Shown in pieces: positions 18,662 to 35,265 of a DNA stretch of 64,000 nucleotides. Position numbers and translations under genes: made by a program. Position 1 is the stretch's first letter. Each line of letters starts with the position of its first letter. The notes beneath the pieces are model-generated. The model worked only from the letters and a program-made list of their open reading frames with translations. It was not told the DNA's origin and did not search any database. This DNA is from Leptospirales bacterium (GTDB lineage Bacteria; Spirochaetota; Leptospiria; Leptospirales; Leptonemataceae): positions 62,001 through 126,000 of the forward strand of contig JAIBBM010000005.1 of the NCBI GenBank assembly GCA_019694685.1, in the 5' to 3' direction.

Positions 18662-19171
18662 ATGAAAAAGATCAACATTGAGCAAACATTCGATCATCCC
18701 CTGGACGTGCTTCTTTCGGCGCGTCAGGAGAGATACAAGCATCTTGATAAGTTCCCTGAATTGAAGAACGTCCAAATCGTAAGCGAGACAACAGAAGGAC
18801 ACATTCTTAAGCAGGTTCGTAACATTTCCCTTGCAGACGCAATGCCTGCCGTCCTTCAAACTGTTCTCCCTTCAGGCGCCAACATGCTTGTGGAAGAATC
18901 TGAATTTGATGATACCACAAACACACACACCTTCAAAGTAACTCCGGGTGGCGGACTCGATAACATCTTCATGGTAAAGGGAGTCTCCAGATACTTCGCC
19001 AGCGGAGATAACAAGTCTACACGTACTTACGACATCGAAGTTACAAGCAAAGTGCTCTTCGTTGGTGGAGTAGTAGAAACAGCAATCGGGGATGTGTATC
19101 GTCACAATCTAGAAAAAGACAAATCGTCCATTGAGCATTTCATCCAGATGCTCAAAGAGGGTAAAACCTGA
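18662..19171 (+). CDS. DUF2505-like (SRPBCC-fold) protein
   Basis: This 169-residue protein lacks signal and spans. The opening F-D-H-P-L-D-V-L-L-x-A-R-x-E-R-Y, the central beta pattern and the final helix D-K-S-S-I-E-H-F-I-Q-M-L fit the DUF2505/SRPBCC lipid-binding-like fold. The start is ATG 18662 with GCAGGA a few bases upstream; an in-frame start at 18617 would add residues in the intergenic region. Its stop (TGA 19169-19171) overlaps the CTG that appears to start argB, so the two are translationally coupled. No reaction is known for the family; a hydrophobic ligand is a guess. Confidence 0.7.
   Translation: MKKINIEQTFDHPLDVLLSARQERYKHLDKFPELKNVQIVSETTEGHILKQVRNISLADAMPAVLQTVLPSGANMLVEESEFDDTTNTHTFKVTPGGGLDNIFMVKGVSRYFASGDNKSTRTYDIEVTSKVLFVGGVVETAIGDVYRHNLEKDKSSIEHFIQMLKEGKT
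19157..19170 (+). promoter_or_regulatory. argB: Shine-Dalgarno and CTG start of argB, overlapping upstream stop
   Basis: GAGGG at 19157-19161 lies 6 bases before CTG at 19168-19170, ideal spacing. The CTG shares bases with the TGA of the preceding gene (CTGA). The reading frame is closed upstream by TAA at 19162 and contains no ATG, GTG or TTG until GTG 19354, which would delete the phosphate-binding K-Y-G-G motif. CTG is therefore the most likely initiator. Confidence 0.75.
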
Positions 19172-20022
19172 GCGGTGAGCTGGAGAAGGAGCTCAGGGCG
19201 CGCGTTCTTCTTGAAGCGCTCCCTTACATTCGCGAATTCTCCGGAAAAACTGTAGTCATCAAGTACGGCGGAGCCGCCCTGGATGACCAGGCAAGTCTTC
19301 GCGCTCAATTCGCAGAAGACATTGTTCTTCTACATTATGTAGGCATCAAGCCTGTGATCATTCACGGAGGCGGGCCTCGAATCAATTCTCTTCTGAAGAT
19401 GATGGGAATTCAATCTCAGTTTTCTGGTGGAGTGCGTGTTACAGACGACGCTACCATGGAAGCAGTCGAGATGGTTCTGTCCGCCAGCATCAATAAGGAA
19501 ATCGTTTCGTTGATCCAGAGCAAAGGAGGCCGCGCCGTTGGCATTTCCGGACGCGACGGCAACCTGGCTCACGCTAAAAAGACAAAACCTGAACTGGGGC
19601 GAGTGGGTGAAGTCACGCCTTCTGACATTGACCCCGCTGTCATTCGCACTCTTCTTCATGGCGGATACATTCCAGTCATCGCACCTGTTGCTTCAGATGA
19701 AAACCGCGATAGCCTCAACGTAAATGCAGATACAATGGCCGGAGCGATAGCGTCTGCCCTGGGGGCAGAAAAGTTTGTACTACTTACGGATACTCCGGGT
19801 GTTCTGAGCAAAGGGGAAACGGTCCCCAGGCTCAGTATGGATTCTGCTCGCGCCATGATTCAGTCTGGAGAAATTTCAGGCGGGATGATTCCAAAAGTTC
19901 AATGTTGTATGTCTGCCTTTGAGCAGGGAGTGAAGCAGATTCATATCGTAGACGGCAGAGTTCCGCACGCCATCATACTTGAAATTTTCACCCGCCAGGG
20001 CGTGGGCACGATGATTCAGTGA
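19168..20022 (+). CDS. argB: Acetylglutamate kinase
   Basis: ArgB phosphorylates N-acetylglutamate in the second step of arginine synthesis. The 284-residue product has the family opening L-L-E-A-L-P-Y-I-R-E-F-S-G-K, then V-I-K-Y-G-G-A-A-L with the catalytic Lys. G-G-G-P-R-I-N follows for the substrate, then F-S-G-G-V-R-V-T and V-N-A-D-T-M-A-G near the ATP site. The C-terminal V-D-G-R-V-P-H-A-I and G-T-M-I are typical. The start is placed at CTG 19168 because no standard start lies between the upstream in-frame stop at 19162 and codon 63. This gives 14 residues before L-L-E-A-L-P, matching the usual N-terminus. A start at GTG 19354 would lack the active-site Lys and cannot make an enzyme. It is coupled to the DUF2505-like gene upstream and followed by apt after 13 bases. 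Confidence 0.92.
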   Translation: MSGELEKELRARVLLEALPYIREFSGKTVVIKYGGAALDDQASLRAQFAEDIVLLHYVGIKPVIIHGGGPRINSLLKMMGIQSQFSGGVRVTDDATMEAVEMVLSASINKEIVSLIQSKGGRAVGISGRDGNLAHAKKTKPELGRVGEVTPSDIDPAVIRTLLHGGYIPVIAPVASDENRDSLNVNADTMAGAIASALGAEKFVLLTDTPGVLSKGETVPRLSMDSARAMIQSGEISGGMIPKVQCCMSAFEQGVKQIHIVDGRVPHAIILEIFTRQGVGTMIQ

Positions 20023-20035
20023 AATAGAGGACCCA

Positions 20036-20578
20036 ATGACAAAAGCCGAAAAACTCGTGAAAGAAGTAGTAAGAACCGTTCCAGATTGGCCGGAAAAAGG
20101 CGTGATGTTTCGCGATATCACTCCGATTTTCCAGCATCCTGAAGTGCTGCATGCGGTGTTTGAAGCGTTCATTGAACGCTACCGCGAAAAGCAGGTGGAT
20201 GTGATTGCTGGAATCGACGCGCGTGGTTTTCTCCTGGGTGTGACCATTTCTTACGAGCTCAAGATCCCTTTTGTGCCCGTGCGAAAGAGAGGAAAGCTGC
20301 CATGGAAGACCGTATGGGAAGAATACACTCTTGAGTACGGAACCGCTGCCATTGAAATGCATGAAGATGCATGCAAGAAGGGCGATCGTGTGGTGATCTT
20401 TGATGATCTCATTGCAACTGGCGGAACCATGCTTGCTGCTGCTAGCATTGTGAAACGTCTTGGTGGCGAAGTGGTGGAAGCGGCGGCTATCATTGATTTG
20501 CCAGACCTGGGTGGCTCCCAGAAAATATGGAAAACGGGCGTTCCAGTACACACTCTGTCAAAGTACGAAGGCCACTGA
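20036..20578 (+). CDS. apt: Adenine phosphoribosyltransferase
   Basis: Apt salvages adenine with PRPP to give AMP in the cytosol. The 180-residue protein has family-typical F-R-D-I-T-P near residue 24, G-I-D-A-R-G-F for the purine pocket, and K-R-G-K-L-P with E-Y-x-L-E-Y-G. The PRPP-binding motif is V-V-I-F-D-D-L-I-A-T-G-G-T with both acidic residues. Length is normal. AGAGGA stands 6 bases before ATG 20036. It sits between argB and a small exported protein, with its stop overlapping a possible CTG start (CTGA) of that next gene. Confidence 0.96.
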   Translation: MTKAEKLVKEVVRTVPDWPEKGVMFRDITPIFQHPEVLHAVFEAFIERYREKQVDVIAGIDARGFLLGVTISYELKIPFVPVRKRGKLPWKTVWEEYTLEYGTAAIEMHEDACKKGDRVVIFDDLIATGGTMLAAASIVKRLGGEVVEAAAIIDLPDLGGSQKIWKTGVPVHTLSKYEGH

Positions 20579-34600: not shown

Positions 34601-34641
34601 GGGTCCAGAAAACCGGCGCCAGGCTCCATCGTCGAGCAAAA

Positions 34642-35265
34642 ATGAAGACAAAGTCTCAAAAAAGCCAGCTTGGCCCCCGAGAGAAGATACTGCGGACCGC
34701 CGTGCGCCTGTTCTACAGGCAGGGCTTCCCGAACACGGGGATCAACCAGATTATAGAAGAATCCGGAGTGGCCAAGGCCAGTTTTTACCAGTGGTATCCC
34801 TCCAAAGATGATCTGGCGCGCGCGTATCTGGATTATTATGGAGATTTACTTACCTCGAGGCTGGAGAGGCTCCTGGACAGGAGTGCGGACATAGATGAAT
34901 TTGCGATGCGCTGGGCTGCCATTTTGAGGAGAGATGTGCGCAGTCAGGGGAGATACAACGGTTGTCCTTTCTTAAATTTCGCAGCACAAATCAGCGCAGG
35001 TCACGAAGGGCTCGATGAAATGCCAGGAGCCATCATTGAAAACTGGATCCACCTGGTGGACAGGCGTCTTACCAGGGCAGTGTCTACCGGCCAGCTACCG
35101 GCGAGTCTGGATACGAGGCTTCTTGCGCGCAGATTGATTCATGCGTTTTCAGGAGCGCACGCTATGTGGCGATTGACTCACGATCCTTCGTGCATCTACG
35201 ATCTCGAAAATGTATTTCGAAGCCTCGTGAGAGATCAGAGTCTGAATTCTACACCCACGCGATAA
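34642..35265 (+). CDS. TetR/AcrR-family transcriptional regulator
   Basis: This 207-residue protein has the N-terminal helix-turn-helix [12 protein letters not shown] then [17 protein letters not shown] (about residues 14-58). The ligand domain carries [12 protein letters not shown] near residue 110, a conserved G-C-x-x-x-N/F-x-A pattern of the NemR-like subgroup, whose Cys can sense electrophiles. It probably represses the divergent thiolase gene and itself through the palindrome at 34581-34600. Its last 31 bases overlap the tail of the convergent outer-membrane gene. Confidence 0.88.

Follow-up and report, generated by a model that had tools for sequence, protein, structure and literature searches.

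The acetylglutamate kinase gene argB lies in the window, by which the whole analysed stretch of 64,000 nucleotides is meant, without any ATG, GTG or TTG in its lead. The question raised by the locus is with which codon, and by what route, translation of this gene begins. The features needed to follow the argument are listed below in the numbering of the window.

18662..19171, + strand, upstream gene of the DUF2505 family, overlapping argB (PF10698, 50.1 bits).
19157..19161, + strand, GAGGG, Shine-Dalgarno-like sequence 6 nt ahead of the CTG, with predicted pairing to the 16S 3' end of the genus.
19162..19164, + strand, TAA, stop codon that shuts the frame of argB two codons ahead of the CTG.
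19168..19170, + strand, CTG, proposed initiation codon of argB; the sole near-cognate codon aligned in 3 of 3 genus species upstream of LLE[AS]LPYI, with no in-frame ATG, GTG or TTG.
19168..19171, + strand, CTGA, start/stop overlap of 4 nt (-4 nt spacing) between the DUF2505 gene and argB.
19168..20022, + strand, argB, acetylglutamate kinase, 284 codons plus the TGA stop at 20020-20022 (TIGR00761, Pfam AA_kinase).
19354..19356, + strand, GTG, the earliest usual start in frame with argB and apparently a false one; weak predicted Shine-Dalgarno pairing (-3.5 kcal/mol).
20036..20578, + strand, apt, adenine phosphoribosyltransferase, next downstream gene, with an ATG start (NF002634, 269.2 bits).

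The layout of the junction had been described in an earlier note and was confirmed on reading the sequence. The argB frame is closed by the TAA at 19162 and offers GTG 19354 as its next ATG, GTG or TTG, the GAGGG of 19157-19161 is located 6 nt ahead of CTG 19168, and this CTG shares 19169-19170 with the TGA of the DUF2505 gene to form CTGA. Positions 19157-19182 read GAGGG (19157-19161) TAA (19162-19164) AAC CTG (19168-19170) AGC GGT GAG CTG (19180-19182). The 3' end of the DUF2505 gene reads AAA GAG GGT AAA ACC TGA, with the argB frame one base behind. The CTG-started lead before LLEALPYI was likewise found as described, except for its length, which had been given as 14 residues; LLEALPYI starts at residue 14, and 13 residues precede it, initiator included. 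A start at GTG 19354 would cost argB residues 1-62, KYGG among them, and it follows from the sequence that gene callers accepting ATG, GTG and TTG alone would begin the gene there.

Read from the CTG, the product scores 245.6 bits against TIGR00761 (cut-off 151.3) and covers positions 1-231 of the 231 in the profile. The nearest solved structures are 2jj4/2v5h, with an alignment from residue 10. The best sequence matches, 2jj4/2v5h, 2bty and 2buf, are acetylglutamate kinases that carry an N-terminal extension, and their alignment with the CTG-started protein begins at its residues 10-12; the present gene differs from them solely in its start codon, and the enzyme looks ordinary.

The genus, which is uncultured and probably allied to Leptospira, was represented by three genomes, one per species and all draft assemblies, namely G000 (the source of the window), G001 and G002. 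A scan of contigs for additional members of the genus gave none beyond these three. argB is single-copy in the genome, and argC and argH were found in the genus, the argC of G001 as fragments on two contigs. The comparison of argB starts with those of close relatives, proposed in the earlier note, was run on this sample and favours the CTG. In 3 of 3 species the argB lead is devoid of ATG, GTG and TTG, and a CTG at the aligned site overlaps the DUF2505 stop as CTGA. The frame of G002 (77% protein identity) is open further upstream, still without a usual start, and the CTG within GGGGGAGAATCCGTCCTGA, which overlaps the DUF2505 stop, is the sole near-cognate codon found at the aligned site. The argB of G001 is cut by a contig end; its 5' part was located via the DUF2505 gene on another contig and reads GGGGGAACCCTCCTGA, where the CTG recurs and no ATG, GTG or TTG is present. 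The break in the G001 assembly (ends of G001:C57 and G001:C83) falls approximately 18-26 codons past the CTG.

With the CTG, and the lack of a usual start, shared by G001 and G002, the absence of an ATG cannot be put down to a sequencing error in the window. An error of this kind had been named beforehand as an objection to the CTG, and with the two other species standing at about 67% nucleotide and about 77% protein identity it is excluded for practical purposes. The broader suspicion of a sequencing or assembly error, or of a decaying pseudogene, can draw on the draft state of the genomes and on the G001 contig that ends within argB. It is nevertheless extremely unlikely: three separate genomes agree, and argB is intact across 284 codons with a predominance of synonymous change.

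The CTG-started protein comprises 284 codons in both G000 and G002, and the alignment of the two runs from the first residue. Codon changes in argB amount to 128 synonymous and 65 non-synonymous from G000 to G002, and to 126 synonymous and 12 non-synonymous from G001 to G002, the latter two being mutually closer than either is to G000. Within the first 18 codons from the CTG, G001 and G002 differ at three sites, every one of them synonymous. As judged from sequence comparison, the N-terminus read from the CTG is demonstrably under coding constraint. Conservation of the CTG itself is partly forced, because the TGA is part of the upstream gene, which leaves the C alone free.

Two other near-cognate codons were considered as starts of argB. 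The second CTG, at 19180, is preceded by a purine-rich sequence, but is replaced by ACG in the aligned G001 and G002. The ATT of PYIR at 19231 is conserved in the genus, and a start there would shorten the enzyme to resemble its E. coli counterpart (1gs5), which aligns from residue 29 only; however, no Shine-Dalgarno-like sequence precedes this ATT, and LLE[AS]LPYI, a motif conserved throughout the class as well as in the longer enzymes, would lie outside the translated region. Initiation at either codon is regarded as unlikely. Production of ArgB fused to the end of the DUF2505 protein, through a -1 ribosomal frameshift close to the stop, would suit the position of argB in the -1 frame relative to the DUF2505 gene and the GGGGG run close to the junction in G002 and G001. 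The G run is absent from the window, though, where TAA 19162 shuts the argB frame and leaves 19162-19171 alone for the shift; no slippery heptamer occurs there (GGT AAA ACC TGA), and relatives have separate ATG or GTG starts for argB, which makes frameshifting barely credible. argB very probably begins at CTG 19168.

Outside the genus, in other genera and phyla, all 107 argB loci have a usual start 14 or more codons ahead of K[YF]GG, whereas 3 of 3 species within it have none. A CTG start of argB was sought in other genera and none was found, all loci that were read having ATG, GTG or TTG. The DUF2505 gene is present in 19 of the 22 genomes of the family and adjoins argB wherever the junction was read. 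The pair is kept across most of the family, and outside the genus a usual start is present in all family genomes whose junction could be read. The argB gene of G020 and G004, which belong to another genus of the same family, starts at an ATG and overlaps the DUF2505 stop by the same 4 nt, as ATGA. These ATG codons are located at -42 and -45 nt, respectively, from LEALPYI, and the CTG of G000 and G002 at -42. The ATGA thus either aligns with the CTGA or is displaced from it by one codon, and the CTG therefore occupies the place of another genus's ATG, with the same -4 nt overlap. The best explanation appears to be a CTG start that became fixed in the genus, replacing the ATG or GTG of related genera.

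Shine-Dalgarno pairing energies were computed against the 16S 3' end of the genus, GGATCACCTCCTTA, taken from G002. The predicted value for argB of the window is -6.3 kcal/mol (median of neighbouring genes -6.1; matched or bettered by 18% of random 20-mers). In G001 and G002 the Shine-Dalgarno-like sequence is GGGGGA(G), with -8.4 and -9.3 kcal/mol, so that the three values are average to good. RNA folding around the junction was unremarkable (z -1.6, 0.7 and -1.1). CUG initiation is inefficient in E. coli systems, and an M1-type change of the initiator tRNA weakens discrimination against CUG (PMC11497404). An altered initiator tRNA was considered for the genus and rejected: the tRNA is ordinary in sequence, with a normal GGG/CCC anticodon stem and the C1xU72 mismatch, and there is no sign of an M1-type change.

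For argB we infer initiation at the CUG, coupling by termination-reinitiation and decoding as Met. Ribosomes would finish the DUF2505 gene at TGA 19169-19171 and reinitiate on the overlapping CUG, assisted by the GAGGG just upstream, and fMet would be placed at this codon by the ordinary initiator tRNA. A start at CTG 19168 reached in this manner is considered highly probable.

CUG starts and NTGA coupling are each already known. Neighbouring or overlapping genes are most often spaced as NTGA (-4 nt) (PMC12548453), and -4 nt pairs can couple via termination-reinitiation (PMC12548453, PMC6728339). The DUF2505-argB pair resembles those pairs in its identical stop/start geometry and in the Shine-Dalgarno-like sequence within the upstream gene, and its order is conserved in the family. 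It differs in that ATGA/TGATG or NTGA are described for the published pairs, whereas argB starts at CUG; in a term search CUG was absent from both papers. A CTG start was proven by N-terminal analysis and mutation for the F-type FIB rep gene, which has a good ribosome-binding site, and many FIB rep records wrongly annotate a GTG 14 codons downstream of the CTG (PMC11983097). FIB rep is a plasmid replication gene held at low expression, whereas argB is a chromosomal biosynthetic gene that overlaps an upstream stop and whose CTG is a candidate on sequence grounds. A search of the literature on argB starts and on leptospiral N-terminal proteomics yielded nothing relevant.

Further unusual starts in the genus were sought by a homology scan, which was swamped by antisense and overlap conservation. 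A six-frame coding-potential scan for genes extending upstream of their first ATG, GTG or TTG was used instead, on sampled stretches of 888 kb from G000, 510 kb from G002 and 95 kb from G001 (about 1.5 Mb). In this unbiased scan argB was top-ranked in G000 and in G002. Candidates lacking homology support, e.g. G002:C5:39334- and G002:C67:8752-, were left uncounted. The other candidates for a CTG start, all backed by homology, are as follows.

G002:C68:3581 (- strand in G002), G001:C129 and G000:C45, murB, no ATG, GTG or TTG before YTT..GG.
G002:C54:9423 (- strand in G002) and G001:C15, response regulator, putative CTG start, CTG AA[AG] CAG ATT CG[CT] GTT directly after an in-frame stop.
G000:C66:57045-57093, + strand, trigger factor, candidate CTG at G000:C66:57057, CTG GAA TAC AAG ACA AAA CGC ahead of GTG as the first usual codon, with GAGG 7 nt upstream of the CTG.
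G000:C42:54016-53884, - strand, truA, likely CTG at about G000:C42:53992, no ATG, GTG or TTG ahead of the conserved ALIVSYDGTKYAGFQ.
G000:C31, about 34629-35088, + strand, outside the window, lipoprotein with the signal ILVLFFCIFAC near 34660, no usual start, CTGA junction.

In murB, all three species are without a usual start before the N-terminal YTT..GG, and CTG GCA GAA ATC comes after GAGGAAAAGGAA, the CTG overlapping the end of a MazG-like gene. A usual start of murB is present in 14 of 14 other readable genomes of the family. In the response regulator (2 of 2 species, G002 and G001) the CTG forms a CTGA overlap with a different upstream ORF. Initiation at the first usual start of the G002 gene would delete the IDDE acidic pair, and the Pfam receiver domain is matched from residue 6. 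The trigger factor, truA and lipoprotein are weaker, single-genome cases. truA may start at an upstream ACG or ATA instead of the CTG and the lipoprotein at an upstream ATT, and the G001 orthologue of the lipoprotein has TTGA at the junction.

Applied to 350 kb of E. coli K-12 with 315 gene-like ORFs, the same scan picked out 1 of them, a repeat region, and gave 0 CTG starts. Relatives, covered over 800 kb, yielded two likely CTG starts, one in an MbnB/TglH-type gene of G032 and the other in a gene of G006 which, from our own reading of its sequence, we take to be of the MBOAT type. With so few cases an excess of CTG starts over E. coli cannot be proven, and the lineage-wide idea is a lead. 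It is possible, if doubtful, that start-codon choice is relaxed in the genus and perhaps in the whole class, with argB, murB, trigger factor and truA on CUG, often overlapping or adjoining an upstream stop, where a terminating ribosome already on the spot would offset the weak codon.

In 36 groups of close genomes, 4 switches to CUG were reconstructed among approximately 69,000 ancestral starts (PMC5622118), and CTG is the annotated start of 20 genes out of nearly 85,000, as quoted in PMC11983097. Published rates of this kind may differ from the true one, because they hinge on callers most of which, being restricted to ATG, GTG and TTG, cannot report CUG starts. What appears to be new here is a CUG start common to the three known species of a genus, at the place and with the overlap where another genus has ATG, and, probably, at least one further genus-wide case, murB. 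A genus-fixed CUG start in argB, and probably in murB, would provide conserved natural cases for studying efficient CUG use and would allow asking whether overlap with an upstream stop makes CUG tolerable. An annotation error is likely at both genes, which such callers would truncate past conserved residues.

One other position picked up as an unusual start, G000:C57:40163, was rejected, since it resembles a frameshift, located at a T run, and not a start. The gene concerned, an MBOAT-like membrane gene at G000:C57:40010-40400 (+ strand), has its N-terminal part in another frame with the T run at the switch, reflecting either a sequencing error or a true frameshift.
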